DNA of 64,000 nucleotides from Primulina eburnea (taxonomy: Eukaryota; Streptophyta; Magnoliopsida; Lamiales; Gesneriaceae), in the NCBI RefSeq assembly GCF_022965805.1, contig NC_133104.1, positions 23,618,069 to 23,682,068 of the forward strand, given 5' to 3'. The notes under the pieces are model-generated. The model did not search any database, had not been told where the DNA came from, and worked only from the letters and a program-made list of their open reading frames with translations. Shown in pieces: positions 966 to 59,335 of the stretch; the first letter of the stretch is position 1; the number at the start of each line of letters is the position of its first letter. Position numbers and translations under genes: made by a program.

Positions 966-1238
966 GGCGCACATGCGCGATGGAATGGAGCGCACATGCG
1001 CGAGCAAGGCAGAAGCCTGCGCGCACATGCGCGACTTCATAGCGCGCACATGCGCGGAACGTCCAGAACCCTCGGCGCACATGCGCGGACGAATGGCGCG
1101 CATATGCGCGGAAATTCCAGAGCCCTCGATGCTCATGCGCGGTAGAGTGTCGCGCATATGCGCGAGGGAGTGCCGAGACACACGCGCTGAAGAATTGTGT
1201 CTCGCGCATATGCGCGAGTGATGCCGCGCATATGCGCG
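966..1238 (+). repeat. Palindrome array (CGCGCATATGCGCG type) in LTR A
   Basis: Ten 14-bp copies of CGCGCAYATGCGCG-like palindromes start at 966, 989, 1020, 1043, 1074, 1097, 1128, 1151, 1203 and 1225. Start-to-start spacings are 23, 31, 23, 31, 23, 31, 23, 52 and 22, so the array is a 54-bp unit with two palindromes per unit. It ends about 50 bp before the TA-rich TATA-like tract at about 1288, so it lies where U3 enhancers lie. The core contains an E-box shape (CANNTG); whether any protein binds is not known. Confidence 0.9.
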
Positions 1239-2302
1239 AGACGTGCTGCATCAAGGAGCAGGACACGTTGCCTTATTCATGCATGGATATATATATATAT
1301 GTATAGACATACGATAATTCTCAAAAAAAGAAAGAGGAATAGAGGGATTTTAAGGAAATTCTCCGTGACATTTTAGATTACGATTTATGCAAAATCCGTC
1401 CGTCAGATTTTAAATCCGACTTCAGTACCGAGTTCCTATCAACGTAGACTACAACTGGACGTAAGTTTTGCTACGTTTAGACATGTTTTGAATTTATGAT
1501 ATTGTCTAAATTGAGTAGGAGTTAGATATGATGTTCTTGACATAGTAGACATCGTATATCTGAAGTCAGATTGAAGAACGGACTGTGTATGGAATTGTTA
1601 GGAATTTTTAGAGTTTATTCGATTGTAATATACTAAATTGATATCAGAATCATGGTATTATTGATTTTGTGATACTGGGATTGATATCTGATTTGTACTG
1701 TGTCACTGGATATATTGATATTAACCAGATTGGGATTAGATGAATTGTTGATTTGTTTGTACTGATATGGTATCGCCGGGATTGCGGGATTGTACAGAAT
1801 TGATATAGAAATTGGTATTGATATTGATTATGAGTTTCTGTATTATATCTGTGATGTTGGGATTGACGGGGTTACTGAGATTGTATTATTATACCGTCGA
1901 AACATCAGTGAATTGATATTGATCAGAACAGGCTTTGAATTGAGCTGTAGATTGACACAGTCTATTCGATATTGTGAATTCAGATTGACATGGACAGACG
2001 TGAAATGGAGTCTTCGTCTTCGTCAGATCATGAAGACAAAGGTATAAGTCAATGTGGTATTGGGAGATGGACTTGAGTCGGTTTAGACTTGGGTTTCCCT
2101 AAATCACATACTTTACTTTATTGCATTGATATTTGCATTGATTGATTGATATACTTGTTTCTTGAGTTATAGATTACAGGTATTAGAAGAGTAATCTTAT
2201 GACAGAAGTGCCGTTAGTGGTGGGATCACCACGGGCACATTGCACGATGTCATAAGATGGTGTATTGGCGGATGTGCCAAAGACGGTCACTGGATGTTGG
2301 TT

Positions 2303-2710
2303 ATCGATGTGGATAGATTGATAGCTCCTTCTATTACTGTTAGTTGATATTATATCGATGTGGATAGATGTATAGCTTATTCTATTACTGTTGGTTGATA
2401 TTATATCGATGTGGATAGATTCATCGTTCCTTCTATTACTGTTAATCGATGTTATATCGATGTGAATAGAATCGGACTTTGTTCTATTACTGGTAATCGA
2501 TGTTCTATCAATGTGGATAGAATCAAGGCTTGCTCTATTACTGTTAATCGATAATATATCAATGTGGATAGAATCAGGGCTTCGTCTATTACTGTTAATC
2601 GATACTGTATCGGTGTGGATAGAACTGGAGTCTTTTCTATTACTGTTAATCGATACTATATCGGCGTGGATAGAACTGGAGTCTTTTCTATTACTGTTAG
2701 TCGATATATG
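2303..2710 (+). repeat. 51-bp tandem repeat, 8 copies, in LTR A
   Basis: The word ATCGATGTGG or a close variant starts at 2303, 2354, 2405, 2456, 2507, 2558, 2609 and 2660, exactly 51 bp apart each time. Each unit also holds 'ctattactgttaatcgat'. Because 51 is a multiple of 3, the minus strand stays open (2183-2713) and would give a 17-residue repeat rich in Ser, Ile, Asn and His. I judge that ORF a by-product of the repeat. Confidence 0.93.
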
Positions 2711-3233
2711 CATACCAACTTCTGGAATCGGGATCCCTAGACTAGGATTGAGTCTAGTCTGAATTATGTAGCTACGAGTATTGTTGACAACGTGCTATTG
2801 ATTATGTTTCAGATTTGTTACATATTGTTGATACCTGATTACATGCTTTATATTTATTTATATGATTGCATGTTTCATTGATTTATACTGGGAGTTATTC
2901 TCACCGGTTTATCCGGCTGTTGTCTTGTCTGTATGTGTACTTGACAACAGGTGGGACAGGTTCAGGGTCGAGGAGATGAGGAGAGATCGAGTTAGAGTGG
3001 AGACTTCGGACTTTGATCTGAGATAGGGTTTGAATACTTGATATTAGATGTTAAACTCTAGTTTGAATAAATGCTTTGTAATACAGGATTTGTATTTTAT
3101 ATACTGAGATGTATATATGTTTTATTTCACTACGTTCCGCAATTTAAAAAGAAAAATTTTTAGACCCTGTTTTATAATTGATTAATTAGTCCCAATGATG
3201 ATTAAGAACTTGATTAGCGTCCGGGTCCCCACA

Positions 3234-7545: not shown

Positions 7546-7550
7546 CTAAA

Positions 7551-9169
7551 TGTGACACCTTGACCCGTTACAATTAAAAATACAGCGGAATTTAAAATTT
7601 TCATACAACTGGAAGGAGTTTCAAAATACATTTCCAAATATCATCAAAAGTATTAACATGATCAACTAAATGATACATCAAAATACAAAACATCATTTTA
7701 ATGATCATGTCCAAAAATATTGCTTGCAAAACAAACTACTTCCTTCCAATCTTCGTATGCATATGACTCCCATCCACAGTCAACGTCCTGGCCCGTCACT
7801 CTTATCTGCATCACATGAAAATAACTGAAATGAGTATAAAACTCAGCAAGTGGAACTCTTACATAACAATGAACATATCATACTCTGCAAAACATGGTTT
7901 TAAAACATAAATACCATCAACTCTGAAATAAATATCATAGCAATAGCATAGCAATAAGATGATATTTTTCCTTACTCTAGTTGGATTGATATCAATAGTA
8001 ACTCTGTCTGTGGTGCTCGTATCCCAATCGATATAAACCGATAACTCTGAGGGATATAAGCCTATGGTCGTTGATCAAATAATTGCATGCAATCTCTGAC
8101 TATGTATCTATCAATCCAATAAAACATTTGAAACTCTCTCTTGACATTTAATCAATCACTTTGAAGTCTATACTCTTTGTATTCCCTTTTTAAATACAAT
8201 TGAGACATACAATGTCTCCAATATATATACAATTGAATCAATACATAGTTATGAAGCCAATAAATGGAATAACACATTAAAATATTTGAAACACAATACA
8301 TATACGATCATGTGAGCACAAGGGATGAAATTCCACTTACAAACCACAATAACACCTTGAATCTAACTCTTGGTACACCACCTACAACAATAATCCATAA
8401 ATAACACCAACATCAACTCAATATCCAAGAATCCAAGTCAAATAATCCATAAATCCATAAACACAACAAACCTACAATATCTCTTCTCCAAAAACCAAGA
8501 AATAAATCTACCAAAAGCTTACCTAAGCTTCCTAGAGCAACCAAGAACTTCGATCTCAACTCGAAACTCCAACTAAATCCAAGAATCAAAGATGAGAAGT
8601 GAAGAAAATGGAGGAAAACCCTTGTTTTATAAGAGAGAAACGAGAATGGAGGAGAAAAGAAAGGTAAAAATTGAAGTCAACCATCCAAAAAGGTACTAAA
8701 TATCTCGCCCATAACTCTACTGTTCATCACCGCGGGTGCGCTCAAACAAGCACCGCAGGTGCGCTGAGCTCACGGCACTCCACCAAAAATCCAAACTCGA
8801 TGACCGCGGGTGCGGTCCTGCAATTACCGCGGGTGCAGTCTACACCGCGGGTGAGGTACTAACATCACTGCGGGTGCGGTGAATCCACGGTAAAACCCAC
8901 AAATTCCAACAATTACGACCGCGGGTGCGGTCCTTACACTGAGTGCGGGTGCGGTATGGCTTCGGCCAAGAAACACACCAAAGCAACTACAATCGATCCG
9001 AAACGCTGAAATGAACAACCAACAACAACTACACCTCAAGACAATAATAACCAACAATACAATGGCCCCTAATCACAACTCTACTCACACAACTAAACTT
9101 AGACTAAATCAATAAATCTATAACATACGAAAACTTAAACCGTACCGTACACTGGGCTCGGCTATTACA
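7551..9169 (-). mobile_element. 5' LTR of element B, 1619 bp
   Basis: On the minus strand it begins TGTAATAGCCGAGC and ends AAGGTGTCACA, with TG...CA ends. It holds a palindrome array (8729-8955), then a TATAAAA-type box on the minus strand near 8630, about 95 bp downstream of the array. No second B LTR is in the window, so its age cannot be estimated here. Confidence 0.88.
8729..8955 (-). repeat. Palindrome array (ACCGCGGGTGCGGT type) in LTR B
   Basis: Eight copies of the inverted repeat ACCGC-N4-GCGGT and variants start at 8729, 8752, 8803, 8826, 8844, 8867, 8918 and 8942. Spacings are 23, 51, 23, 18, 23, 51 and 24. Pairs 23-24 bp apart are therefore the unit, as in LTR A, although the palindrome sequence is different. 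The array is strongly CpG-rich in an AT-rich setting. Confidence 0.9.
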
Positions 9170-10657: not shown

Positions 10658-10828
10658 TGTAAGGCCCGAGAATTTGATTACCGTAATCTGAAATGATTTG
10701 GGTATAATTACCGTAATCTTAGATTAATCGGGAATGATTTCTTGATTTACTGAAGTGATTATAGACGGAACGGAGTGGACCGAGAAAGACGAAAACAGAC
10801 GCAAAATATGTGCGAGGGACGAACCATT

Positions 10829-11101
10829 CGCGCACATGCGCGACGAGATGCGCGAGCATGCGTGCATAGTGCAGAAGCTTTCGCGCACATGCGCGGCGTA
10901 TAGGCGCGCACATGCGCGGCAGGTCCAGAACCTCTCGCGCATATGCGCCGAGATAGTGCGCGCATATGCGCGAGGGGCATGGTGCGTGACCAGTAGGTCT
11001 CGCGCATATGCGCGACTGGAGTTCGCGCATATGCGCGAGTAGTGCAGAAGCTGGACAATGCTTCCGGCGCATATGCGCGGGCATCGAGCGCGCATATGCG
11101 C
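10829..11101 (+). repeat. Palindrome array (CGCGCATATGCGCG type) in D 5' LTR
   Basis: Palindromes start at 10829, 10851 (degenerate), 10882, 10905, 10936, 10959, 11001, 11024, 11066 and 11089. From 10882 the spacings are 23, 31, 23, 42, 23, 42 and 23. The first four use CACATG in the core and the later ones CATATG. Compared with A, two of the 31-bp gaps are lengthened by 11 bp, about one DNA turn. Confidence 0.92.
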
Positions 11102-11940
11102 CAGTCATGCAAAACGTAAGCTTGCCATTTGGCTTATTGCATGTCTGAGATGTATATATATATATATACATATAAACGTTAATCAGCAGAAGAAAATGGA
11201 GGATTGAAGGGAAAGCTTACTTCTTAATTTTGAAACTTGATTTACGAGCGAACCGTCTATCTGAATTAAAATCCGAATTCGGTACTGTGTTCCTATCAAC
11301 GCAGGATACAACTGGACGTAAGTTTTGTTACGTTTTGACATGTCCTGAAATTATGATGTTGTTAGAATTGAATACACGTCATATATGTTGTTCTTGACAT
11401 GTTAGACAGCGTAGAATCGAAGTCAGATTAAGAAACGGACTGAATATGAAATTGTTATGATTTTCGGAGTCGTTTTGGAGCCGATTTGATATCAGAATTG
11501 AGTTGTTATTGATTATGAGATATTAGAATTGATATCTGACTGATATGATAGGGCTGGATATATTGAGATTATGATGTTATGTTGTTGAAACAGAATTTGA
11601 TTGAATTCTGTTTGTATCCAGTATTAATTGAGTGGTGTATTGATACCATACCCTCGATATTGTTATTGTCAGACTGAGTATTGAGAGGCTTGGGGTTCGA
11701 GACTTCGACAGAGCCAGGGTATCAGAAAGAAAGGTATAAATTAATGTTGTGTTGGGATTGCACAACTCGAGAAAGGTTTGACTCGAGTTTCCCTAAATCA
11801 CATACTTAGTTTATTACATTGATTCTTGTAATTGATGAGATTGATGTTTGTTGTCTATTGATTATAGCCACTGCATGTAAGGACTGCTGATTCGCTAGTC
11901 ATTGATTGATTTGCTTAGATACTGACTGTATGTATTGATT

Positions 11941-12140
11941 CTGAGTCGTTGAGTCATAGGCTGATTCGCCTAGTCACCGGCTGATTCGTCGGCTATTGAC
12001 TGATTCGTCTACACATAAGCTGATTCGCTTAATTACAGGATGAGTTGTCTGATTATTGGCTGATTCGCCTAATTACTGGCTGATTCGTCAGGTTATTGAC
12101 TGAGTCGTCAATCCTGCGGCTGATTCGCCCAGACACTGGA
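11941..12140 (+). repeat. 20-bp tandem repeat in D 5' LTR
   Basis: About ten copies of CTGATTCGYCTAATTAYTGG-like units start every 19-20 bp from 11941 to 12120. The unit starts with CTGATTCG in most copies. It occupies the LTR region downstream of the promoter, as the 51-bp repeat does in LTR A. Confidence 0.88.
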
Positions 12141-12759
12141 GATAATAATTATATCGATGCCATTTAGGGATTGATTCATTCCTATCGACTGAGATTCGAT
12201 ATAATTATCTATATCCAGACATCGGGATCCCTAGGTTAGAGTTGAGTCGAGTCTGAGACGACGCGTTGTTGAGTCAAGTCTGAGTCTGAGTATGATTCTT
12301 TGCTTGATATTAATTATGTTTCAGATTTGAGACATGTTATGAATATTTGTTATATGCTTTTATATATGTTTTTATATGATTGCACGTTTACATTGTTTAT
12401 ACTGGGATATTTATATCTCACCGGAGTTATCCGGCTGTTGTCTTGTTTTGTATGTGTGCATGACAACAGGTGGGGCAGGTTCAGGGTCAAGAAAAGAAAG
12501 AGGCTGGACTAGATAGCGTGGAGATCCGGGCTTCGAAGCAATTTAGGATTCAGCACTGATATGTAGTTGAACCTAGGTTGAATCCTTGTAGATAATACAT
12601 GATGTGTATGTTTATGTTTAATATGTAATTTGAAGTTAATTACATTACGTTTCCGCTTTGTATATTAAAAGAAAAAAAAAATTAGACCCTGTTTTATAAT
12701 TGATTAATTAGTCCCAAACATGATTAAGAATTTGATTAGCGTCCGGGTCCCCACAACAG

Positions 12760-12771
12760 GTGGTATCAGAG
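12760..12771 (+). other. Primer binding site of D
   Basis: TGGTATCAGAGC begins 5 bp after the LTR end and matches the initiator methionine tRNA 3' end, the usual primer for plant chromoviruses. Confidence 0.93.
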
Positions 12772-15834: not shown

Positions 15835-16005
15835 TGTAAGGCCCGAGAATTTGATTACCGTAATCTGAAATGATTTGGGTATAATTACCGTAATCTTAGA
15901 TTAATCGGGAATGATTTCTTGATTTATTGAAGTGATTATAGACGGAACGGAGTGGACCGAGAAAGACGAAAACAGACGCAAAATATGTGCGAGGGACGAA
16001 CCATT

Positions 16006-16279
16006 CGCGCACATGCGCGACGAGATGCGCGAGCATGCGTGCATAGGGCAGAAGCTTTCGCGCACATGCGCGGCGTATAGGCGCGCACATGCGCGGTAGG
16101 TCCAGAACCTCTCGCGCATATGCGCCGAGATAGTGCGCGCATATGCGCGAGGGGCATGGTGCGTGACCAGTAGGTCTCGCGCATATGCGCGACTTGAGTT
16201 CGCGCATATGCGCGAGTAGTGCAGAAGCTGGACAATGCTTCCGGCGCATATGCGCGGGCATCGAGCGCGCATATGCGCC
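16006..16279 (+). repeat. Palindrome array in D 3' LTR
   Basis: Copy of the 5' LTR array at the same offset (171 bp into the LTR), with the same spacing series 23-31-23-42-23-42-23. Confidence 0.92.
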
Positions 16280-17119
16280 AGTCATGCAAAACGTAAGCTT
16301 GCCATTTGGCTTATTGCATGTCTGAGATGTATATATATATATATATACATATAAACGTTAATCAGCAGAAGAAAATGGAGGATTGAAGGGAAAGCTTACT
16401 TCTTAATTTTGAAACTTGATTTACGAGCGAACCGTCTATCTGAATTAAAATCCGTCTTCGGTACTGTGTTCCTATCAACGCAGGATACAACTGGACGTAA
16501 GTTTTGTTACGTTTTGACATGTCATGAAATTATGATGTTGTTAGAATTGAATACACGTCATATATGTTGTTCTTGACATGTTAGACAGCGTAGAATCGAA
16601 GTCAGATTAAGAAACGAACTGAATATGAAATTGTTATGATTTTTGGAGTCGTTTTGGAGCCGATTTGATATCAGAATTGAGTTGTTATTGATTATGAGAT
16701 ATTAGAATTGATATCTGACTGATATGATAGGGCTGGATATATTGAGATTATGATGTTATGTTGTTGAAACAGAATTTGATTGAATTCTGTTTGTATCCAG
16801 TATTAATTGAGTGGTGTATTGATACCATACCCTCGATATTGTTATTGTCAGACTGAGTATTGAGAGGCTTGGGGTTCGAGACTTCGACAGAGCCAGGGTA
16901 TCAGAAAGAAAGGTATAAATTAATGTTGTGTTGGGATTGCACAACTCGAGAAAGGTTTGACTCGAGTTTCCCTAAATCACATACTTAGTTTATTACATTG
17001 ATTCTTGTAATTGATGAGATTGATGTTTGTTGTCTATTGATTATAGCCACTGCATGTAAGGACTGCTGATTCGCTAGTCATTGATTGATTTGCTTAGATA
17101 CTGACTGTATGTATTGATT

Positions 17120-17319
17120 CTGAGTCGTTGAGTCATAGGCTGATTCGCCTAGTCACCGGCTGATTCGTCGGGTTATTGACTGATTCGTCTACACATAAGC
17201 TGATTCGCTTAATTACAGGCTGAGTTGTCTGATTATTGGCTGATTCGCCTAATTACTGGCTGATTCGTCAGGTTATTGACTGAGTCGTCAATCCTGCGGC
17301 TGATTCGCCCAGACACTGG
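17120..17319 (+). repeat. 20-bp tandem repeat in D 3' LTR
   Basis: Same CTGATTCG-led 20-bp units, ten copies, as in the 5' LTR at 11941-12140. Confidence 0.88.
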
Positions 17320-17941
17320 AGATAATAATTATATCGATGCCGTTTAGGGATTGATTCATTCCTATCGACTGAGATTCGATATAATTATCTATATCCAGAC
17401 ATCGGGATCCCTAGGTTAGAGTTGAGTCGAGTCTGAGACGACGCGTTGTTGAGTCAAGTCTGAGTCTGAGTATGATTCTTTGCTTGATATTAATTATGTT
17501 TCAGATTTGAGACATGTTATGAATATTTGTTATATGCTTTTATATATGTTTTTATATGATTGCACGTTTACATTGTTTATACTGGGATATTTATATCTCA
17601 CCGGAGTTATCAGGCTGTTGTCTTGTTTTGTATGTGTGCATGACAACAGGTGGGGCAGGTTCAGGGTCAAGAAAAGAAAGAGGCTGGACTAGATAGCGTG
17701 GAGATCCGGGCTTCGAAGCAACTTAGGATTCAGCACTGATATGTAGTTGAACCTAGGTTGAATCCTTGTAGATAATACATGATGTGTATGTTTATGTTTA
17801 ATATGTAATTTGAAGTTAATTACATTACGTTTCCGCTTTGTATATTAAAAGAAAAAAAAAAATTAGACCCTGTTTTATAATTGATTAATTAGTCCCAAAC
17901 ATGATTAAGAATTTGATTAGCGTCCGGGTCCCCACAAGCTA

Positions 17942-18384
17942 GCTTTCCTTTCCCTTGTTTCCTTCTCCTCTCTCGTTCTCTGTTGCTGAAAATGGTGAGT
18001 GAAGGAATCGACAACACATCTTATTGCATGGCTAAGGTCAAGTGTCTTATTTTTCAAGTTACACGCCCGACCGCGGGTGCGGTAACTCCAGGAGCGCGGG
18101 TGCGCTAATGCTTCGGAACCAATTCCATTTTCTGAAATTCACGACCGCGGGTGCGGTCTTGTTCTTACCGCGGGTGCGGTGTGGCTTCGGCCTTTCTTGC
18201 ACAATTCATAATTTATGACCGCGGGTGCGGTCATGTTTGCACCGCCGGTGCGCTCTTGCAAACCCTATTTTCTCACGTCTTTTCTTCCCTCATTGCATGT
18301 CATACATTTTCATATCTACCGAGTCTGACGTTAATGAAGGTTAATAATCTCGATTTATCAATTCAATAATTCTTGGGCATTACA
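17942..18384 (-). mobile_element. LTR C, proximal part
   Basis: Continuation of LTR C on the far side of element D. On the minus strand it begins TGTAATGCCCAAGAATTATTG, matching the start of the F LTR at 59335. Beyond 18384 there is no polypurine tract, so this is a 5' LTR or a solo LTR; its other end was lost to the B insertion. It carries the palindrome array at 18070-18254. Confidence 0.88.
18070..18254 (-). repeat. Palindrome array (ACCGCGGGTGCGGT type) in LTR C
   Basis: Six copies start at 18070, 18093, 18144, 18167, 18218 and 18241, spaced 23, 51, 23, 51 and 23. This is a perfect 74-bp unit with two palindromes each. Confidence 0.93.
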
Positions 18385-18821: not shown

Positions 18822-20154
18822 TGATAAGTGCATTTTATGCACTTAAATTATTTCATATACTTCATACAGATTGTTAGTCTCTTTGGAAGAAATTACGCAT
18901 TTTGTGTTGTTTTGGTGTGATTGCAGGAGTTTAGGTACGGTTACGACATGGGCATGAAAACGAACTAAAAAGGCGTTTAGTAGAAGAAATGTGAGCCAAG
19001 GACAGTGTGCCCCCCGCACATGTGCGAAAATTACAGAGAGGTCGGCGCATATGCGCCACTCAAGGCGCGCATATGCGCGAGGGACGAGAGTTGAGACCAG
19101 AGGCCACTGCGCATATGCGTCGGACTTGTGCGCGCATATGCGCGTAGGAAGAATTCCCAAGATAGACATAGGCGCGCATATGCGCCGTCTTAGGGCGCGC
19201 GAACCTTCAGAATAAAATAGGTCTCGGCGTGATTTTTTAGGTGTTCCGCATTCTTTACACACATCCGTCACACCACTCGAGAGAAAGGAGAAAAAGTGAG
19301 AGCGCACGGAGCACGGGACGTGAAGAACGGAGATAGAAGACGTTGAAACCGGACACGGAGAAGCACTTTCATCTCTCGCCAACACGTTATTAATTCGGTT
19401 TCTTACTTTTACGTTTTTAATGATTACAAACAGGTTTTGTAGTGACTTAAATTCGAGCATGACCTAATTATATTTTTTAGAGATTGATGTAGTCGTGGTT
19501 GAACCTATGTTAATGACGATTTGAATTTTCATTGAGTTATTTCATCGTGTCTATTTGTGATTTCTTGTTTTTAATGCTTTTGAATTACTGGACATAATTC
19601 GATTGATTACATAATTGAAATCTTACACTCGACAGAGGGGATTGAAATTAGGACAGAAGAAATCACATCGTTAGATATTTATAACGTGCAAAAGATGTAT
19701 AACTCTGATGAATCCATAAAAGAACCTTGTTTACATTTATTACGTGTTACGTGATTTTGAATAGACATATTAAAATCAGTAATAGGTAGTACATTTCTAT
19801 TTATCACTCGACAGAGGGAATAGAAAATATTGTGAGTTTGGTTAATACACATGGTGCAAATTTAATTAAATGTTAGTCAATGTTAATTTAGCATAGGGGA
19901 GACTCGATGAAATCATATCTCTAGATTTATTTCCTCAGTGACTTTTCTGCTTCGTGCTAGAATTACAGGAATTGTTATTTTATTTGGATTGATTTTAAAC
20001 CAACTATTTGATTTGTTTAAATAAAGTTGAGCTATGTCAATTATGTTAATTAATATACAGTTTTAAATATTTACTCTTTGTGGGATCGATATCTGTACTC
20101 TAACCAGTACTAAAACTTGGCACCGTATACTTGTGGTAGTGAAAACACGTTACA
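18822..20154 (+). mobile_element. 5' LTR of E, 1333 bp
   Basis: Begins TGATAAGTGCATTTTATGC and ends ACACGTTACA. The palindrome array (19013-19208) sits about 190 bp in, followed by an AATAAAATAGG TATA-like word. ORFs at 18843-19460 are read through the array and are not called. Confidence 0.93.
19013..19208 (+). repeat. Palindrome array (CGCGCATATGCGCG type) in E 5' LTR
   Basis: Copies start at 19013, 19044, 19066, 19108, 19131 and 19173, with a degenerate one near 19195; spacings 31, 22, 42, 23, 42 and 22. One unit present in the 3' LTR is missing here. The motif is the one of chromovirus LTRs A and D. Confidence 0.9.
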
Positions 20155-25109: not shown

Positions 25110-26459
25110 TGATAAGTGCATTTTATGCACTTAAATTATTTCTTATACTTCATACAGATTGTTAGTCTCTTTGGACGGAATTACGCGTTTTCTGTTGTTT
25201 CGGCGTGATTGCAGGAGTTTAGGTACGGCTACGACATGGGCGTGCAAAAGAACTAAAAAGGCGTTTAGTACAAGAAATGTGAGCCAAGGACAGTGTGCCC
25301 CGCGCACATGCGCGACTTATCCCCGCACACATGCGCGAAAATTACAGAGAGGTCGGCGCATATGCGCCACTCAAGGCGCGCATATGCGCGAGGGACGAGA
25401 GTTGAGACCAGAGGCCACCGCGCATATGCGCCGGATTGGTGCGCGCATATGCGCGCAGGAAGAATTCCCGAGATAGACATTGGCGCGCATATATGCGCGC
25501 GGCGCGAACCTTAAGAATAAAATAGGTCTAGGCGTGATTTTTTAGGGGTTCCGCATTCTTTACACAGCCGTCACACCACTCGAGAGAAAGGAGAAAAAGT
25601 GAGAGCGCACGGAGCACGGGACGCGAAGAACGGAGATAGAAGACGTTGAATCCGGACACGGAGAAGCACTTTCATCTCTCGCCAACACGTTCTTAATTCA
25701 GTTTCTTACTTTTACGTTTTTAATGAATACAAACAGGTTTTGTAGTGACTTAAATTCGAGCATGAACTAATTTTATTTTCTGGAGATTGATGTAGTCGTG
25801 GTTGAACTTATGTTAATGACGATTTGAATTTTCATTGAGTTATTTCATCGTGTCTATTTGTGATTTCTTGTTTTAAATTATTTTGAATTACTGGCCATAA
25901 TTCGATGGATTACATAATTGAAATCTAACACTCGACAGAGGGGATTGAAATTAAGACAGAAGAAATCACATCGTTAGATATTTATAACATGCAAAAGACG
26001 TATAACTCTGACGAATCCATAAAAGAACCTTGTTTACATTTATTACGTGTTACGTGATTTTGAATAGACATATTAAAATCAGTAATAGGTAGTACATTTC
26101 TATTTATCACTCGACAGAAGGAATAGAAAATATTGTGAGTTCTTGGTTAATACACATGGTGCAAATTTAATTAAATGTTAGTCAACGTTAATTTAGCATA
26201 GGGGAGACTCGATGAAATCATATCTCTAGATTTATTTCCTCAGTGAATTTTCTGCTGCGTGCTAGAATTACATGAATTGTTATTTTATTTGGATTGATTT
26301 TAAACCAACTATTTGATTTGTTTAAATAAAGTTGAGCTATGTCAATTATGGTAATTAATATACAGTTTTAAATATTTACTCTTCGTGGGATCGATATATG
26401 TACTCTAACCAGTACTAAAACTTGACACCGTATACTTGCGGTAGTGAAAACACGCTACA
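25110..26459 (+). mobile_element. 3' LTR of E, 1350 bp
   Basis: Matches the 5' LTR with scattered changes and a ~23-bp difference in the palindrome array, and ends ACACGCTACA before the TAGAT duplication. The array is at 25301-25507. Confidence 0.93.
25301..25507 (+). repeat. Palindrome array in E 3' LTR
   Basis: Copies start at 25301, 25324, 25355, 25377, 25419, 25442 and 25484, spaced 23, 31, 22, 42, 23 and 42. This is the D series (23-31-23-42-23-42) to within one base. The last copy has an extra TA (CATATATG). Confidence 0.92.
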
Positions 26460-27848: not shown

Positions 27849-29915
27849 TGTAACGCCCAGACGTTCGTATGCATATGATGTATGTAAGGTAATAATTATG
27901 ATTAAGTATGGTCATTACTCTTTTTATGGTTTATTATGATGATCGTTTGGGGATATGTGATGTAATGGTGATGGTTTATGGCTTCAAGTTATGATATGAA
28001 TGGTATTGAATGATATAGAATGAAACAGTGAATGTATGGGTAGAATAGAAAGTTAATCTTTAGCTAAGTAGGTAATGGAAGTGCTAAAACGACATGAAAA
28101 TGAGGAAGTAGTTGTGGTTTTTAGCATAATGTTTTGTATATTGATCCAAATGATGTGTGGCCACTTCCATTAGAAAGCTAAGATATAATGCTATAACTTT
28201 CTTGTTTTGAGTTTTGTTCAAATCATTGTGGAAGACAAGCCAAAAGCGCCCCGAAGTTTGTCGTGTGTGTCGTCGTTCCTCCAGTGACACATGTTGGGAG
28301 ATTGAGCATAACTCTTTACTCAGACCTTCAAATGACATGCGGCGAATTGGAGATGCAAGCCAAGACATAGAGCTACAATTTTCCTATTTACCATTTTTCC
28401 AAATTTTGACGGGAAGAAGCGTTTCGGAAACGAACTTTGACGAGGTTGTACGCAGAGCGCACGTCGGGACAGCAGGTGCCGCGCTAGGGCGGTAAAGTTT
28501 GAGCGCCCCAGCGCCCCTGGCACTGAAATTTTGGGTTTCGGACAGTAAGTTCCGCGCTAGCGCGGTAAAACTTGACCGCCCCAGCTCCCTGTTCAGTGGA
28601 AAAGCGTGTTTTGGGTGAATTAAGGTATAAAATCTGTTGAGACACAACTTTTCCTCATTTCTCTTCTTTTCTTTCTCTTCTCCAACAATTCCAAGCTAGG
28701 GTTTTTCATGTTCTTCTTATCCTTTATTTCAATCAAGCAATTAATCTTCAATCCGGAGTTGGAACTTCATCTTTTTAGTGAAAGGGACAAAGGTAAGTGG
28801 TTTTTCTTCTTGTTCTTGAGTTATTGAAGATGGTGGAGTTAGGAAATGATAGTTGTTATAGATGTGTTGGGTTAAATGGTCATGTAATGTTATTATTTGG
28901 GTGTTGATGGTTATTTATTGGGTTTATTGTTGTAGGATCACCATCAAGGTATAGGAAATCAAGTGCTCCAAGTGTTGTAAGTGGAATCATTTCTTCAATA
29001 CATCACATGATCCTATATGTATGTGTTTTGACGATTTTATGATGTTAACTCCTTTCAAATTTCATTCATGATATATATATATATGTAAATATGTATATAT
29101 GGTAGTGCAATTATATGCATTTTTTAATGAAAGGAGTTAAACTTTAAATGATGCCTCAAAGATGTTTGATAAAATGCTTGAATTAAGTTTTATATGATTG
29201 AATGATTAGATTGATAGTGATAGTAGCGGTGTTGCCTCTGGCAATTCTAATTCCGTAATGTAATTGGCCAATTAACGATGAAAACATGTGTTTTCTTATA
29301 AGATGCATTATCTGCAGAGGTACATGTCCCTCCTATAAGATTCGTTTTTACGAAGAGGGTTAGTAATGAATGAACTAACTTATAAGAACTATCAATTAAT
29401 GATGATTCGACGTTTACGAAATGAGATGGATAATGTTTTCAAGAAAATGAAGTTGAGGCTCCCATTTTATGTTTTGCAATAAAATGATATATATGTACCT
29501 TGTTAGTATTGATTCCATTTACTGAGTTATATACTCATTCCAATTATGTTCATGTGATGCAGGCGCAGGTAAGAAAGACTGATCATCCCTGAGTTGTCGA
29601 AGCGAGAGAAAGAAATATGCCAAACTTTGGAGATATCAAATGGATGTTATTTTTGTTATGTCAAGATTTTGGCTATTTTGGAAAACATTGAAAATGTTGT
29701 TTTGCGCTTTGGTTTTGGCAAGATGTGTAGATACTTACTTAATGGTATCTGCTGAATATGAAAATCTTTTGCATGTGTTTTATGTGTTGTTTGAGACAGG
29801 TGGCATGTCTTATTTACGGGGAGATGCTGCCCAAATTTTTAAAATTACACATTTTCTCCAAATTTATATTTTAAAGCTTCCGCACTAATTATGCATTTTA
29901 TTCACGAGTGTTACA
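27849..29915 (+). mobile_element. 5' LTR of G, 2067 bp
   Basis: Begins TGTAACGCCCAGACG and ends GAGTGTTACA before the primer site. It holds the palindrome array (28479-28588) and a TATAAAA box at 28626-28632, 38 bp downstream of the array. Compared with the 3' LTR it lacks ~50 bp near 29395 and has an extra segment near 29050. Short ORFs in it (28084-28647, 29640-29888) are not called. Confidence 0.94.
28479..28588 (+). repeat. Palindrome array (CCGCGCTAGCGCGG type) in G 5' LTR
   Basis: Four 14-bp sites: CCGCGCTAGGGCGG (28479), AGCGCCCCAGCGCC (28502), CCGCGCTAGCGCGG (28552) and ACCGCCCCAGCTCC (28575). Spacings are 23, 50 and 23, a 73-bp unit. The third is a perfect palindrome. Confidence 0.88.
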
Positions 29916-29920
29916 TTTAG

Positions 29921-29932
29921 TGGTATCAGAGC
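29921..29932 (+). other. Primer binding site of G
   Basis: TGGTATCAGAGC, 5 bp after the LTR end; initiator methionine tRNA type. Confidence 0.93.
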
Positions 29933-34519: not shown

Positions 34520-36627
34520 TGTAACGCCCAGACGTTCGTATGCATATGATGTATGTAAGGTAATAATTATGATTAAGTATGGTCATTATTCTTTTTATGG
34601 TTTATTATGATGATCGTTTGGGATATGTGATGTAATGGTGATGGTTTATGGCTTCAAGATATGATATGAATGATATAGAATGAAACAGAGAATGTATGGG
34701 TAGAATAGAAAGCTAATCTTTAGCTAAGTAGGTAATGGAAGTGCTAAAACGGTAAAAATGTGGCAATAGTTGTGGTTTTTAGCATAATATTTTGTATATT
34801 GATCCAAATTATGTGTGGCCACTTCCATTAGAAAGCTAAGACATAAGGCTATAACTTTCTTGTTTTGAGTTTTGTTCAAATCATTGTGGAAGACAAGCCA
34901 AAAGCGCCCCGACATTTGTCGTGTGTGTCTTCGTTCATCCAGTGACACATGTTGGGAGATTGAGCATAACTCTTTACTCAGACCTTCAAATGACATGAGG
35001 CGAGTTGGCGATGCAAGCCAAGATAGAGAGCTACAATTTTCATATTTACCATTTTTCCAAATTATGACGGGAAGAGGCGTTTCGGAAGCAATCTTTGACG
35101 AGGCTGTACGCAGAGCGCACGCCGGGACAGCAGGTTCCGCGCTAGGGCGGTAAAGTTTGAGCGCCCCAGCGCCCCTAGTACTGAAATTTTGGGTTTCGGA
35201 CAGTAAGTTCCGCGCTAGGGCGGTAAAACTTGACTGCCCCAGCTCCCTATTCAGTGCAAAAGCATGTTTTGGGTGAATTAAAGTATAAAATCGGTTGAGA
35301 CACAACTTTTCCTCATTTCTCTTCTTTTCTTTCTCTTCTCCAACGATTCCAAGCTAGGGTTTTTCATTTTCTTCTTCTCCTTTATTTAATCAAGCAATTA
35401 ATCTTCAATCCGGAGTTGGAACTTCATCTTTTTAGTGAAAGGGACAAAAGTAAGTGGTTTTTCTTCTTGTTCTTGAGTTATTGAAGATGGTGGAGTTAGG
35501 AAATGATAGTTGTGATAGATGTGTTGGGTTAAATGGTCATGTAATGTTATTATTTGGGTGTTGATGGTTAGTTATTAGGTTTATTGTTGTAGGATCACCA
35601 TCAAGGTATAGGAAATCAAGTGATCCAAGTGCTGTAAGTGGAGTCATTTCTTCAATGCATCACATGATCCTATATGTATGTGTTTTGATGATTTTATGAT
35701 GTGTATATATATATATATATATATATGTAAATATGTATATACTGTAGTGAAATTATATGCATTTTTTGATGAAAGGAGTTAAACTTTAAATGATGCCTCA
35801 AATATGTTTGATAAAATGATTGAATGAAGTTTTATATGATTGAATGCTTGGATTGATAGTGATAGTAGCGGTGTTGCCTTGGCAATTCTAAATCCGTAAT
35901 GTAATTGACCAATTAACGATGAAAACATGTTCTTTCTTATAAGATGCATTTTATGCAGAGGTACATGTCCCTCCTATAAGATTTGTTTTTACGAAGAGGG
36001 TTAGCAATGAATGAACTATCTTATAAGAACTATCAATTCTTCAGTTGATCAATGAAATGAATATCATCCCCATGTATTGTTGTATTATGATTCTTGACGG
36101 ATGATATTAATGATGATTCGACGTTTACGAAATGAGATGGATAATGTTTTCAAGAAAATGAAATTGAGGCTACCCATTTTATGTTTTGGAATAAAATGAT
36201 ATATATGTACCTTGTTAGTATTGATTCCATTTACTGAGGTTTATACTCATTCCAGTTATGTTCAGGTGATGCAGGCACAGGTAAGAAAGACTGAGCATCC
36301 CTGAGTTGTCAAAGCGAGAGAAAGAAATATGCCAAACTTTGGAGATTTCGAATGGATGTTATTTTTGTTATGTCAAGCTTTTGGCTATTTTGGAAAACAT
36401 TGAAAATGTTGTTTTGTGCTTTGGTTTTGGCAAGATGTGTAGATACTTTACTTAATGGTATCTGATGAATATGAAAATCTTTTGCATGTGTTTTATGTGT
36501 TGTTTGAGACAGGTGTTATGTCCTATTTACGGGGAGATGCTGCCCAAATTTTTAAAATTTCACATTTTCTCCAAATTATATTTTAAAGCTTCCGCACTAA
36601 TTATGCATTTTATTCACGAGTGTTGCA
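34520..36627 (+). mobile_element. 3' LTR of G, 2108 bp
   Basis: Aligns with the 5' LTR apart from indels in a TA repeat (35706-35727) and ~50 bp near 36045. Its end is TGTTGCA, where the 5' LTR has GTTACA, a point change in the terminal region. ATTAG follows. Confidence 0.94.
35137..35246 (+). repeat. Palindrome array in G 3' LTR
   Basis: Sites at 35137, 35160, 35210 and 35233 with the same 23-50-23 spacing as in the 5' LTR. Confidence 0.88.
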
Positions 36628-36632
36628 ATTAG

Positions 36633-37337
36633 TTATTCTTATTATTTTATATTATGCAATTGATAATAAAAATATGTATTATTAGTTATTCTTATTATTT
36701 AATATTAAATTCATAAAAATTTGCAAGAAGTGAAAAAATAAATTCAAGCATTTACGAGAACTTATCGATGAAAAATATGAAAGGGTAAATGAAGTGAGAC
36801 AATCAAGTCTTCAATTTATAGAGAAAATTTATAATATTATAATGAATTCGAAATTATTAAAGTTATGCTGTTGCAGCTTTTAACAGATGTGCGGAGGCAT
36901 GCAACTCTGAAATAATTTAAGAATATAACTTATACTATTATTTTTAAAAAAAATGTAAAAGCAAGTCACGCCTACTAAATTCGCGTGACTTATTTAAAAA
37001 AATTATAAAGCAAGTCACGCCATATGAGATGGCGTGACTTGTTTTTTTAAAAAAACAAAAACAAATTGAAAGTCACGCCTCTTGAAAAGGCGTGACACAT
37101 TAGTTTGTTAATTTTTTTTTACCTTATTTTGTTAAGCTTTTACAAATAGTGATGTAAACAGTTAAAAAGCCTCATGTTCTGCCGCACAAGTACCGAGACT
37201 CAGTGCTGGAGCCATTGACCCGATTTTCAAAAATCGGGCGATATATTAACCCAACGAACCATAGGCAAAGGTGGAAGAAAGTTCAGATTAAACGAGGTTA
37301 GCAAACGTTTTTTTAAGGTGTGAGATTGTGTAGTGAT
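36633..37337. repeat. Spacer with three AAGTCACGCC hairpins
   Basis: Three stem-loops with arms AAGTCACGCC / GGCGTGACTT lie at 36963-36991, 37012-37040 and 37070-37097. The inner stem differs between copies but stays paired (CCAT with ATGG; CCT with AGG). A related hairpin is at 27239-27269 in opposite orientation of context, so the two sides of G carry an inverted repeat. No gene is seen here. Confidence 0.75.
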
Positions 37338-45450: not shown

Positions 45451-45712
45451 TGTACGACCCGAGATGTGAGTTGGTAATCAGCAGTTATTAACGCATGATT
45501 TAATGTATTTATCGAAGGCTGAAGAAGCGATGTCGCAAAATATATTGTTGGGGCAGCAAAGACAATGCACCCGCGGTTAAAAAGATAGTGCACCCACGAT
45601 CGTTTCTCATGACCGCACCCGCGGTAAGAACAGGACCGCACCTGCAGTGGAGGCACCGAGACAGGAGGGCACCCACGGTGCAAGAGCCAGCGCAATTTTA
45701 GAAGTGTTACTG
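45451..45712 (+). mobile_element. 3' LTR of H, first part
   Basis: Begins TGTACGACCCGAGATG after the polypurine tract and runs to the copia insertion. It carries the palindrome array 45564-45679. It continues at 49138. Confidence 0.88.
45564..45679 (+). repeat. Palindrome array (ACCGCACCCGCGGT type) in H 3' LTR, split
   Basis: Copies of ACCGCACCCGCGGT, the reverse complement of the B/C/F motif as H is on the plus strand, end at 45577, 45600, 45625, 45648 and 45679 (spacings 23, 25, 23 and 31). Two more, ending at 49158 and 49180 (22 apart), lie beyond the copia insert. A TATAAATA box is at 49225, 45 bp after the last one. Confidence 0.87.
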
Positions 45713-46145: not shown

Positions 46146-46147
46146 AC

Positions 46148-48595: not shown

Positions 48596-48664
48596 AAGGA
48601 GGTATGAGCTGCTGCACTGATGGTGTGAAGACATGATTGGAATCAAGTCTTCAAGTGGGAGAAT
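48596..48664 (+). other. 3' untranslated end and polypurine tract of I
   Basis: A short non-coding stretch ending AAGTGGGAGAAT just before the TG of the 3' LTR at 48665. Confidence 0.8.
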
Positions 48665-49137: not shown

Positions 49138-50651
49138 TAAGCTCAGCGCACCCGCAGTGCAGAGTGAGCGCACCCGCGGTGCGACGTGTTGAGTGAAGAA
49201 TAAAACATGTGTCCTTGCCATGCATATAAATAACATGTATTCACCTTCATTTTAGACTTCAGCACCTACAGAAAACGACTATGAAAGTTCCTCAAGTTTT
49301 CTTCAAGCCTAAGTTGTTGGTTTTGCAAGATTCGACTACCCGAATTTAATTCCGAATTCAGATTTTTGTTCCTCTCTTCGATAGCTTCGTAAGGATGTAA
49401 GTATTGTTACATTTCAGTATGATTTGAAGTTGAGATGTTGGGGAAATCAAATTTTGATTCCTATTATATGTTATTATGATGAGTGAGAACTTGGATTCGC
49501 AACCGGATCGAGAAACGGATACGTTATGCGGTTATTATTATTTTCAGCATATATTGTGATTGAGAATATGCAGATTTCAGCGTGGTACATTGTATTCTTG
49601 AGGATTTTGACTTGTTAAGATGGATATGTGAATTATTGTTATTTGAGTTGATCGGTATCGAGAAACTATGTTGTTATGCTGTCGAAATGTATCGAAATTG
49701 ATTATTAATTTGTATATATAGTGGCTTGAGTTGTAGATTGATATTGTATATCTCAACATTGTCATTTCAGATCGGTATAGACAAGCTTCGACAGATATAG
49801 ACTTCGATCTCGACAAATATTGTACGACAAGAAGGTATAATTCATGTTGATTCGGGAAGATACAACTCGGATTAGATTTGATTCGAGTTTCCCAAAATCA
49901 CATACTAGATTTCTATACCTTGTTATGTTGTGCTTTATATTGATTTATATACAACCATTGAGATAGGAGAGTCATTGGCAGATTTGCCAAGTTTCTAGAT
50001 GCTCGGGGGTATCGAGGCATAGGAGAAGATCGACTCCGATTGTAGATATTCGATACAAACAGGGTCAAATTCTAGGAATAAGACGTACCGCCACCCCGAT
50101 TGGGAGAGTAGGTGGGAGACTTGTTACGTCTTATTCATACCGGGATCTCTAGATTTAGATACGAGTAGAGTTAAAGAGTAAGAGTCGAATTTTTTATCTG
50201 TATTCACTAATGTGTCATAATTACTGAATTATGTGTTATGATTTTGTATGAAATTGTATGACGTGCATGTATACATGTTTTATACTGTGATTTGTTCTCA
50301 CGGGAGTTTCCTGCTGTTGTTGTGTCTGTATGTGTGCATAACAACAGGGGGTACAGAATCAGGGTTCAGAAGAACTTGACGAGGATGAGAGATCAAGATA
50401 GCGTGATGATTTCGGGCGTAGAATATTACTAGTGATTGTATATGTGATGTGGAGTTGTACTAAAACACTAGTTGGTATGATAATGTTGGAACAAAACATG
50501 TATGTGTTTTTAATGAAATAAATTTGAGATAAATCTTATGTATGATTTATATACATTTTTTATGTTATTAAACATTTTTTTATGACCCACATTTTCTAGC
50601 AAAGATCCAATTAATCCCAAAGATAAACGAGTTAGAGCCCGGGTCCCCACA
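49138..50651 (+). mobile_element. 3' LTR of H, second part
   Basis: Continuation after the copia insert and TSD. Two palindrome copies come first (end at 49180), then TATAAATA (49225) and the U5-like end GTCCCCACA. The last ~140 bp match the end of the 5' LTR of H. Confidence 0.88.
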
Positions 50652-53027: not shown

Positions 53028-53032
53028 ATTTA

Positions 53033-56132: not shown

Positions 56133-57300
56133 TCAAGCATAATACTTCTTTAAATTAAATACATTCCAAGGCCTTTTGAGAGAACGTCCTTGGACATCTT
56201 CTAGATCAAAGGATCCCGATCTGAGCCTTCGGGTTATTTTGCAAGGCCCTTCCCACCGAGCTTCCAGCTTCCCCACATCTCCTATTGGATTAACTTTCTT
56301 CATAACCAGATCCCCAACTTGGAAATCTCGGATCCGGAATTTCTTATTATACGATTTCATAACCCGGCCCTGGTATGCTTCCATTCGAACCAATGCTTGA
56401 TCTCTCTTCTCTTCTACCAGGTCCAACTCCATGGCCCGGCTTTGATCATTGATGTCCGGATAAGATTCTACCCAGGAAGAAGTTTGCCCAATTTCAACTA
56501 GCAAGACTGCTTCAGAGCCATATACCAAGTTAAAGGGAGTTTTTTGAGTGGGTGCCCGGGGAGTAGTTCTGTATGCCCAGAGAACACTGGGTAATTCTTC
56601 CACCCAGTTTTTTCCTTTGCCTTGCAACCTAGTTTTCAATGCTTGTACAATAATTCTATTTACCATTTTTGTCTTGCCATTAGCATGAGGGTAGGCAACA
56701 GAAGTGAAAGGCTAAGTAATCTTCATTTCCCGGCACCAAGATGTAATCTCTCTTCCCTGGAACTGTCTTCCATTATTTGAAATCAGTCTCCTGGGTACTC
56801 CAAATCGGCACACTATGTTCTTCGACAAGAACTTTAAACTTCTTGTTCAGTGATTTTGTCGAATGGCTCGGCTTCTACCCATTTGGAAAAATAATCCACA
56901 TCCACCAGCAAGAATTTTGTTTGAGCCCGGGCAATTGGGAAGGGACCCACAATGTCCATACCCCACTGGTCAAAGGGACAAGAAGCCCAGATTGGCTTCA
57001 TAATAGTGGCCGAGCAGTGCTGAAAATTTTTGAGTGATGTTGACAACCCTCACAGCCCTGCACCACCTGCGAAGAGTCCTGGCTAATAGTTGGCCAACAG
57101 AATCCGGCAAGCATTGTCTTCCGGGCCAAAGATATTCCTCCAAGATGTCCACCGCAACATCCTTCATGAATTTCCCGGAGGACATAATCTACCTCCTCCG
57201 CAAGCAAGAATTTTAATAGAGGTCCCTGTAATGATCTCTTGTACAAGACAATGTTTAAGATAACAAACCTGGGAGCTTGTCTCTTGATCTTCTAGGCTCG
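56133..57300 (-). pseudogene. Integrase of J, catalytic residues lost
   Basis: On the minus strand the zinc finger is present (HEGCCGGHLG, then CEGCQHHS) in 57246-56998, the first Asp in WGMDIVGPFP in 57046-56834, and the C-terminal half in 56666-56133 (ALKTRLQGKGKNWVEELPSV, RWEGPCKITRRL). The pieces are in different frames. Near 56780 the second Asp word reads SNNGRQF where the family has Asp before Asn, and near 56690 the Glu word reads NGKTKM where the family has Glu. Both are G-to-A changes. This enzyme could not be active even if the frame were whole. Confidence 0.87.
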
Positions 57301-57317
57301 GGCTTTGTCATCATGTA

Positions 57318-59335
57318 TGTGGGGACCCGGACGCTAATCATCTTCTTAATCATCGTTGGGATTTAATTATCAGTTCTGATAAACAGGGTCTAAAAATTTT
57401 TCTTTTAAAATATAAGTGCGGAAGGTAATGGTATCTAAATAATATACATATCTATATAAAAGTACAATAATGTTCAACAGTCTTTCAATTACTCTAAGGT
57501 TCAACTACTAAAGTTCTAGTAATAAAACCTATCTATATCCAAGTCCGGAATCACCACGCTAACTCGTCTTCTCTCATCATCTTCTGACCCCGATCATGTC
57601 CCACCTGTTGTCATGTACACATACAAAACAAGACAACAGCCGGATACTCCGGTGAGAATAAATCCCAGTATAAAACATGGTAAACATGTATATACATCAA
57701 GTAAATCATGAAATATTCTATCATGAATAAACCTAAAACAATAGATTTCATAATCTATGAAATTAACTCCAAATAAGCATGCAACACAAATCAGTTAAAC
57801 ATGCTACTCAAATCAAATCATAAAAACATGCTATCATGACTGAAGGCAATAGCAATGGGTTTCATAGTCTACGAAACCACATCCATAAACGCATGCAGTT
57901 CTAGTCAAATCATGTCTAGACTCGACTCGACTATAACTCTAGGGATCTTGGTGTGAATAAGACGTCAATGGCTGTCACCTACCCTCCCACTCGGGGCGAC
58001 TGTACGTCTTATTCCTAGACTTCGGTCTGAGCTGTATGGACGGCTGCAATAGGAGTCAGAGCTGCTGCTAAGCTGAGATACACCGAACATCTAGAAGTCT
58101 GACTATCTGTCAAACTTTCCTATCTCAAATGCAATGTATAACAATCTGTAAACAAAGCATGCTCATTTCAAAAGATTTGAATATAATGTCTATAAACAAA
58201 TCATAATCATATCAGAAGATAAACAATAAACAAGTATGTGATTTTATTGGGAAACTCAAATGAGATCTGATTTGAGTTATATCTTCCCAAATATCACATG
58301 AATTATACCTTTCTCGTCCCGGTCTGACGAAGACGATGACCTGTATTCAAATCTGTCCATATCCAATCTGAAAAGACAATATCGAATACATAGTATCAAT
58401 GAATAACTCAATTCACAATCTGTTCTGATCAATACTCAACTCAGTATATAATCTGATCAATCAACAATCTAACAATGAATCGCAATCAATATCATATCTG
58501 ATCAATCTAAATCAATACTGAATCTGATCAATCTAAATTAACTGATGTTTCGACGGCATAACAATACAATCTGAATAACCCCGTCAATCTGAACATCACA
58601 TATATAATACCAGAACTCATAATCTCGATATCGGTATATTCAAAATCAATACTATAAAATTCTGATATCAAAATCTCAGTCAATATCTTTCGAAAATCAT
58701 AACAATTACAGAAACAATTTGTTCTTTAATCTGACTTCAATTTTACAATGTCTACGGTAGTAGAAACACCATATCTGAGTCATATTTGATTCTGACAACA
58801 TCATAATGTCAAAACATCTCAAAACGTAATAAAACTTACGTCCTTGTGTAGCTCGTGTCACGAGGAACACAATACTGCGTTCGGATTCGAATTCTGATGG
58901 ACGTATTCTTTGTAAATAAACTTCTCACTTAAGAAATCAACTTCTCTCCCGAAGCTCTCGATTTCCTGTCTAAATTCTGAAGAAAACGTGTCATGCTTCT
59001 ATATATATACTGCATGCAAATTCTGAAACGTGGCATCATTTTTCATGCTACACGCATGACCGCGGGTGCGGTCGTGTCATGCACCGCGGGTGCGCTCATG
59101 CTTCGGCATTATCTTTATTTTTCCGGATTCGAGCACCGCGGGTGCGGTGATGCTACGCAATATCTTGCCAACTTACTGTCCATGCACCGAGGGTGCGGTG
59201 ATGTTTGGCACCGCGGGTGCGGTGATGTCTGGCACCGTGGGTGCGGTCTTGAATTTTCCAGAATTTTCCCATTTTTCCATCCTTGCAACACTTTATAATC
59301 TTGTCTTATCAATTCTATAATTCTTGGGCATTACA
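57318..59335 (-). mobile_element. 3' LTR of F, 2018 bp
   Basis: The minus strand begins TGTAATGCCCAAGAATTATAG and ends GTCCGGGTCCCCACA. It holds the palindrome array 59059-59247 and, about 49 bp downstream of it on the minus strand, a TATATATAG box (59001-59010). ORFs over the array (58993-59320, both strands) are not genes. Confidence 0.92.
59059..59247 (-). repeat. Palindrome array (ACCGCGGGTGCGGT type) in F 3' LTR
   Basis: Copies start at 59059, 59083, 59135, 59186, 59210 and 59234; spacings 24, 52, 51, 24 and 24. Same motif as in B and C; pairs are 24 apart. Confidence 0.9.

Follow-up and report, generated by a model that had tools for sequence, protein, structure and literature searches.

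Why should retrotransposons of different lineages carry, in their long terminal repeats (LTRs), arrays of short GC-rich palindromes set at the same distances from one another? The question is raised by a 64,000-nucleotide stretch of the Primulina eburnea genome (contig NC_133104.1, positions 23,618,069 to 23,682,068; the window hereafter), which self-comparison, LTR ends, and target-site duplications (TSDs) show to be a nest of plant LTR retrotransposons. Arrays A, C, D, F, and H lie in one group of Ty3/gypsy elements (group 1, with LTRs starting TGTA...), arrays G and B lie in a second (group 2), and array E lies in an element that we take to be Athila-like from its primer-binding site and gag. 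Our reading, held with somewhat better than even confidence, is that the arrays serve as a promoter-proximal enhancer of several Ty3/gypsy LTR lineages, one that would be read by a dimeric DNA-binding protein together with a partner.

Three words make up the arrays: M1 (CGCGCATATGCGCG) in A, D, and E; M2 (ACCGCACCCGCGGT) in B, C, F, and H; and M3 (CCGCGCTAGCGCGG) in G. Each is far more frequent than in shuffled sequence, with 39 window matches to M1 at up to two mismatches (0.06 expected), 21 to ACCGCN4GCGGT at up to one mismatch (0.29 expected), and four to M3 at up to two (0.01 expected). An initial annotation of this DNA had described arrays of GC-rich inverted repeats that use three palindromes and are set in every array in pairs 22 to 25 base pairs (bp) apart, mostly 23. 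The arrays are real and are also found beyond the window, and all three words are present; M2, however, is palindromic in its 5-bp arms only, with a centre, ACCC, that is conserved yet asymmetric. The pairing holds in large part as well. Successive sites in seven arrays (A, B, C, D, E, F, and H, with one LTR taken per LTR pair) give 48 distances, of 18 (one), 22 (four), 23 (19), 24 (four), 25 (one), 31 (eight), 42 (four), 51 (five), and 52 bp (two), and 27 of the 48 fall at 22 to 24 bp, against a mean of 4.8 and a maximum of 14 in 20,000 random placements. The list includes three degenerate sites with four to five mismatches (one each in A, D, and F) as well as a half-site of F whose position at +23 was assigned manually; dropping that half-site gives 26 of 47. 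What does not fit the described pairing is G, which has no clear pair because its single M3 sites lie 73 bp apart and the sequence 23 bp after each is degenerate, and the gaps of 17 to 20 bp that are also present in M2 arrays. The claimed periods of 54, 65, 74, and 73 bp hold, and the gaps between M1 pairs cluster near 31, 42, and 51 bp. A motif-free scan for repeated GC-rich dyads recovered arrays A, C, D, E, and H and missed B, F, and G in the real window; it returned nothing in one shuffled window.

The same organization extends through the genome (812,487,562 bases in 1224 contigs). Exact M1 occurs 24,002 times and exact M2 52,056 times (26,459 plus 25,597), where 0.51 and 0.32 occurrences per strand, respectively, are expected by chance assuming 38.5% GC; the reversed words do not occur at all. 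Site calls at genomic loci allowed up to four mismatches. On contig C1, the first 50 listed M1 sites are distributed over 19 places of 3 to 13 sites each, and the first 20 M2 places contain 2 to 11. An excess of 23-bp spacing elsewhere in the genome had been proposed as a check on the original observation, and it recurs for both words: distances of 22 to 23 bp are the commonest for M1 (73 of 137; null 12.3, maximum 24) and those of 22 to 24 bp for M2 (57 of 98; null 11.0, maximum 22), although these counts are not independent because the samples include LTR pairs that probably belong to single elements (L150/L151, L152/L153, L159/L160, L170/L171, L177/L178, and L182/L184) and near-identical copies in opposite orientation (L168/L169). 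Other M2 distances lie at 51 to 52 bp (22) and 17 to 20 bp (four), with others scattered at 29 (two), 37 (one), 44 (one), and 60 bp (two), so that M2 gaps are less strictly classed than those of M1. In one M2 array, L183, the 23-bp pairs are retained but the gaps measure 29, 29, and 44 bp where 31 and 51 to 52 bp would be usual. No opposite-strand M2 site was found at two mismatches in any of the 20 M2 loci. For a few loci LTR status is only presumed because their matches to LTR references are low or absent: L158 (45 bits) and L154 (120 bits) among the 19 M1 loci, and L168, L169, and L185 (44 to 47 bits) and L173 (none) among the 20 M2 loci. Another set, L105 to L134, was chosen by similarity to D and contains many near copies. 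Twelve 10-kb stretches taken at round coordinates held M1 in two cases, as one pair in L136 and as an array in L142, and M2 or M3 at two mismatches in none of the twelve. The lone M1-like pair in L136 (positions 4503-4538, 22 bp apart) has no similarity to the LTR references used. In viral contigs, neither the paired M1 nor the paired M2 pattern had a match, a gag piece found nothing, and a reverse-transcriptase piece found four stretches, none of them a relative. The single M1 word matched 104 viral stretches, with one site in each of the 80 listed, and we take these matches as chance.

The long linkers between pairs contain a second motif, X (C[AC]G[ATC]A, as in CAGAAGC, CAGTAGG, CCGAAGC, and similar words). 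Of 62 distinct M1 linkers, 34 have X at an anchored position (in 2000 shuffles, a mean of 2.5 and at most 8), and in 30 of those 34 it stands exactly 5 bp ahead of the next pair, regardless of linker length. When the lineages are clustered separately, it is found in 6 of 16 Athila-like linkers and in 27 of 49 others. The motif was chosen by eye on the window, M2 linkers included, and on the M1 linkers, which leaves the M2 genome sample as the sole out-of-sample set; there, 12 of the 39 linkers and upstream stretches carry X at that same distance from the pair (null 0.65, maximum 4 in 1000 trials). In the 5' LTR of G, X (CAGCAGG, CAGTAAG) lies 4 bp ahead of both M3 sites.

On the other side of the arrays lies a TATA-like word. 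Such a word had been noted near the arrays in the initial annotation, and it does begin 58 to 74 bp after the start of the last site in A, D, F, G, and H; in B it is farther away, at 111 bp (97 bp after the end of the site), and in C and E none was found in the stretch examined. Among M1 copies outside the Athila-like set, 41 of 46 have the word 60 to 69 bp after the start of the last 14-bp site, which is 46 to 55 bp from its end, with 21 of the 41 distances being 64 bp and coming nearly all from close copies of D. The C1 sample alone gives 10 of 14 M1 copies at 60 to 69 bp, and 10 of 20 M2 loci have the word at 60 to 63 bp.

A comparison of diverged arrays separates the sites from the sequence around them. 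Across 17 pairs of M1 arrays, one of which (L159/L160) probably represents two LTRs of one element, 202 of 618 positions have changed in the short spacers within pairs (0.327), whose length is kept, 323 of 1075 in the long linkers outside X (0.300), 1025 of 4244 in the flanks (0.242), and 80 of 436 in X (0.183). In the palindromes (P) the figure is 153 of 2105 (0.073), a conservation that is somewhat favored because position classes were taken from the first member only and sites were called at up to four mismatches. Three M2 pairs that share their last three distances, differ in the flanks by 0.05 to 0.5, and have at least four sites give a similar picture, with changes at 10 of 171 positions in P (0.058), 19 of 64 in the spacers (0.297), and 157 of 423 in the flanks (0.371). 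The natural reading of this pattern is selection on active rather than dead copies.

The arrays are not independent of one another, as indicated by linker matches across lineages, a gradient of M1 centers common to both M1 lineages, and M1 and M2 variants that come within three substitutions of each other. Site class cuts across the element groups, since M1 is found in group 1 and in the Athila-like element and M2 in groups 1 and 2; within arrays the classes stay apart, and across the 69 loci scanned M1 and M2 sites (two mismatches) never came within 80 bp of each other. With the sites masked and the best match taken for each of 24 listed array pairs, six pairs gave linker matches equalled by at most five of 500 shuffles, uncorrected for the number of pairs: A-D (same group, 12/17), A-E (12/17), B-C (19/37), C-D (8/9; M2 versus M1), C-F (8/9), and E-F (10/17). 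The CACATG center of M1 is confined to the distal half of the array in both lineages. Group-1-like copies, many of them near copies, have 103 CACATG and 94 CATATG centers distally and 0 and 203 proximally; Athila-like copies have 11 and 8 distally and 0 and 17 proximally. These findings correct the earlier picture of three unrelated palindromes with one selected geometry. The alternative named alongside it, one ancestor for all of these U3 (unique 3') segments, is largely right on origin, given the linker matches and the center gradient, but it leaves the upkeep of the spacing unexplained. Likewise, the proposal that a geometry is selected despite changing sequence is borne out insofar as spacing is kept while spacers change, but not in its implication that the arrays are independent solutions. 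Common ancestry or array exchange thus explains the origin of the shared spacing, not its maintenance during spacer divergence.

That distinction bears directly on the strongest rival explanation, a minisatellite inherited by descent, in which a two-palindrome unit of 54 to 74 bp, after duplication in an ancestral U3, spread by copying to several lineages and left the spacing as an unselected relic. Parts of arrays A, D, and H are indeed called as tandem repeats, linkers match within lineages and in some comparisons across them, and the center gradient is shared. We nevertheless consider a relic unlikely: sites diverge about one-quarter as fast as spacers and one-third as fast as flanks, the spacers hold 22 to 23 bp though their letters change, X is anchored in both site classes, and none of the 137 M1 distances in the C1 sample falls at 32 to 39 or 44 to 47 bp (null 28.1, minimum 13).

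The conserved dyad-arm word, the fixed pairing, the anchored X, and the TATA-like word downstream point instead to an enhancer on which a multi-protein complex would form. Its module consists of X, 5 bp, a palindrome, ≈9 bp, and a second palindrome. Repetition of the module sets successive pairs at intervals of ≈54, 65, or 74 bp, and the last palindrome begins 60 to 69 bp ahead of the TATA-like word in most of the group-1-like copies examined. A dimeric DNA-binding protein may occupy each palindrome, placing two dimers side by side on each pair, while a partner protein would read X, and the stacked modules could then assemble an activating complex beside the TATA box. The best period for helical phasing, over 62 distinct linkers, is 10.15 bp (R 0.76). 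A symmetry of the whole pair was considered and rejected, the outer bases of first and second sites differing in frequency only. The cassette may have been inherited and also swapped among LTR lineages by recombination, with tandem duplication keeping the site type uniform within each array.

Several observations weigh against this enhancer. X, found by eye, is missing from 28 of the 62 distinct M1 linkers and from 27 of the 39 M2 stretches, and in the three M2 pairs it has changed at 12 of 35 positions (0.343), barely below the flanks. The TATA-like word is not at its usual place in the Athila-like arrays (five of six have none, and one has it at 22 bp) or in 6 of 20 M2 loci, and three more M2 loci have it at 108 to 109 bp. 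No linker match at the level of five in 500 shuffles was found for 18 of the 24 array pairs, and helical-turn tests on the length classes are weak (P 0.03 with three classes, 0.14 with seven), so that helical phasing stands as a lead. The asymmetric but conserved M2 center is odd for a simple homodimer site. Finally, between the two LTRs of an element the divergence of the array compared with that of the rest is 0.011 versus 0.006 in D, 0.083 versus 0.041 in E, and 0.036 versus 0.048 in G; the arrays thus show no consistent constraint once inserted, which dead copies would lead one to expect but which lends no support.

The palindromes might alternatively act as RNA, forming hairpins in a U3 transcript that either supply small-RNA silencing or help the element to evade it. 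Such a role has been proposed for maize Sireviruses, and small RNAs map to Sirevirus palindromes according to the portions consulted of two reports (PMC5311732, PMC10760457). The folded arrays are more stable than shuffles, with z scores of −5.4 for A, −2.5 for B, −3.4 for C, −8.4 for D, −4.8 for E, −2.4 for G, and −1.7 for H (F was left out), and many of the pairs predicted for M2 arrays join bases no more than 16 nucleotides apart (31 of 51 in C, 37 of 78 in B, 20 of 50 in H). Any DNA palindrome folds, however, and in M1 arrays few of the predicted pairs are so close (20 of 93 in A, 19 of 98 in D, 16 of 63 in E). The outer M1 pair is complementary in 54% of sites only, the asymmetric M2 center is 88 to 98% conserved though unable to pair, and hairpins need neither a fixed pair spacing nor a position ahead of a TATA word; we regard this explanation as quite improbable. 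We give equally little credence to an epigenetic role, in which the factor reading the dense CpG words would not be an activator but one that silences or counters silencing, encoded by the host or by the element and acting as VANC proteins do on the tandem motifs of VANDAL elements: CpG observed/expected is 1.07 to 1.54 in the six arrays measured (all but C and F) against 0.59 to 1.36 in the rest of the same LTRs, and VANC targets are tandem repeats that vary between related elements (PMC5735166, in the excerpt consulted), but no extra regulatory reading frame was recognized in the ten of 27 open reading frames (ORFs) scanned, a weak argument, and a position just ahead of the TATA word suits a promoter role equally.

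Among the titles and abstract openings that literature searches returned, we found no description of paired palindromes in Ty3 LTRs, and a text search with six site words returned no matching paper. Repeated, partly palindromic U3 regulatory boxes do occur in plant LTR elements, namely the BI/BII boxes of Tnt1 and the heat-responsive repeats of ONSEN; these have fewer copies, belong to single Ty1/copia families, and are not known to be shared between lineages. The site of the animal protein NRF1 is the palindrome GCGCATGCGC, which resembles the M1 core GCGCATATGCGC. The M1 core differs from it in two extra middle bases, TA or CA, between GCGCA and TGCGC, and we know of no plant NRF1 orthologue. 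NRF1 is methylation-sensitive and activates unmethylated mouse retrotransposons, according to the part consulted of one report (PMC12420836).

The closest known kind is the repeated motifs (RM boxes) of Sireviruses, as described in the sections consulted of Bousios et al. 2010 (PMC2829016), and the arrays here fall outside the Sirevirus set. Like RM boxes, they are high-copy, clustered, CpG-rich LTR palindromes shortly ahead of a TATA box, with a word that varies between elements. The proximity to TATA, which in Sireviruses lies a mean of 37 bp after the CpG island, is Sirevirus-like in most group-1-like copies but not in Athila-like copies or in about half of the M2 loci. Sireviruses are Ty1/copia elements with a CGG-CCG core, one element excepted. 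Here at least three groups of Ty3/gypsy elements act as hosts, the triplets of M2 stand in the order CCG...CGG, and M1 contains neither arrangement; those sections describe no 22- to 24-bp pairs, second motif, or preferred gaps of the sort seen here. A second parallel is the target motif YAGTATTAY of VANDAL transposons, bound by the element-encoded VANC protein and, as far as the excerpt consulted shows, also a short tandemly repeated motif in noncoding transposon DNA that changes between related elements (Hosaka et al. 2017, PMC5735166). Unlike the arrays, it belongs to DNA transposons and is neither palindromic nor CpG-rich, and no VANC-like frame was recognized among the ten window ORFs scanned.

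The coordinates of the arrays and their LTRs are collected in Table 1. Array C occupies the U3 of a minus-strand group-1 LTR that starts near 18384 and was cut by the insertion of element D (TSD AGCTA); the LTR stretch at 9169-10172 is probably the other part of it. Array F is a single array split by a non-autonomous Ty1/copia element at 45713-49132 (TSD TACTG), whose 5' LTR lacks ≈34 bp found near the start of its 3' LTR. Element D is young, as its LTRs are ≈99% identical, and its internal part (12757-15834), only ≈3 kb long, contains a gag ORF and a stretch resembling the pol region of the element before F; relatives probably assisted its transposition. Ten of the 27 listed ORFs, none from the internal part of A, were searched for domains. 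Ty3_capsid was matched in internal ORFs of B, D, and H and in the element before F; B and G gave matches to the reverse transcriptase RVT_1, the insertion in F gave one to a Ty1/copia reverse transcriptase, and E gave matches to gag and integrase only. The 5' LTR of E (19013-19057) lacks one distal-pair palindrome present in the 3' LTR (25301-25368), as if a 23-bp unit had been deleted between both sites. Other repeats are present as well: at 2302-2709, LTR A has eight 51-bp tandem repeats beneath a 203-amino-acid minus-strand open frame (a repeated SIHIDI.SINSNR-like peptide), and both LTRs of D (11956-12107 and 17134-17290) carry a 20-bp minisatellite (GGCTGATTCGCCTAATT...).

Table 1. Palindrome arrays, host LTRs, and examples of motif X in the window (distances between site starts in bp)
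Feature	Coordinates	Strand	Details
LTR A, group 1	795..3233	+	Start at TGTAATGCCC, which follows a purine-rich tract; end from homology with D and H
Array A	966..1238	+	10 M1 sites (one degenerate); 23,31,23,31,23,31,23,52,22; TATA-like word 63 bp past last-site start
X example CAGAAGC	1010..1016	+	Position 8 of a 17-bp linker in array A
Array B	8729..8955	-	8 M2 sites; 24,51,23,18,23,51,23 (element orientation)
Host of array B		-	U3 of a minus-strand group-2 Ty3/gypsy LTR, 5' end near 9169
5' LTR of element D, group 1	10658..12755	+	Self-comparison, LTR ends; TSD AGCTA
Array D1	10829..11102	+	10 M1 sites (one degenerate); 22,31,23,31,23,42,23,42,23; TATA-like word 64 bp past last-site start
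3' LTR of element D	15835..17936	+	Self-comparison, LTR ends, TSD
Array D2	16006..16279	+	Spacing identical to D1
Array C	18070..18254	-	6 M2 sites; 23,51,23,51,23
X example CCGAAGC	18184..18190	-	3 bp ahead of next pair in array C
5' LTR of E	18822..20154	+	Self-comparison, LTR ends
Array E1	19013..19186	+	M1 sites
3' LTR of E	25110..26459	+	Self-comparison, LTR ends
Array E2	25301..25497	+	7 M1 sites; 23,31,22,42,23,42
5' LTR of G, group 2	27849..29921	+	Self-comparison, LTR ends
Array G1	28479..28588	+	Two M3 sites 73 bp apart; partners at +23 degenerate; TATA-like word 74 bp past last M3 start
3' LTR of G	34520..36633	+	Self-comparison, LTR ends
Array G2	35137..35246	+	Two M3-like sites 73 bp apart
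Array F, distal part	45564..45679	+	M2 sites; group-1 LTR starting near 45451
Array F, proximal part	49145..49180	+	Two M2 sites 22 bp apart; TATA-like word 58 bp past last-site start
3' LTR of H, group 1	57318..59335	-	Self-comparison, LTR ends
Array H	59059..59247	-	6 M2 sites; 24,24,51,52,24 (element orientation); TATA-like word 63 bp past last-site start

The host proteins needed for the transcription of plant retrotransposons are poorly known, and two 14-bp words in ≈76,000 copies, with a composite grammar that runs across LTR lineages, offer a direct handle on the putative binding protein. Tentatively, and as a possibility rather than an expectation, we suggest that several Ty3/gypsy lineages have in common a portable enhancer grammar (X, 5 bp, P, 9 bp, P, with helical-turn stacking). 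Its M1 and M2 alphabets cross lineages yet were not seen together in any array, which would be the pattern if two competing complexes, or a single evolving protein with two specificities, split the retrotransposons into regulatory guilds that switch their sites in concert. If the site types do mark two binding specificities, the arrays would be a clear example of transposon lineages changing their cis sites in concert.

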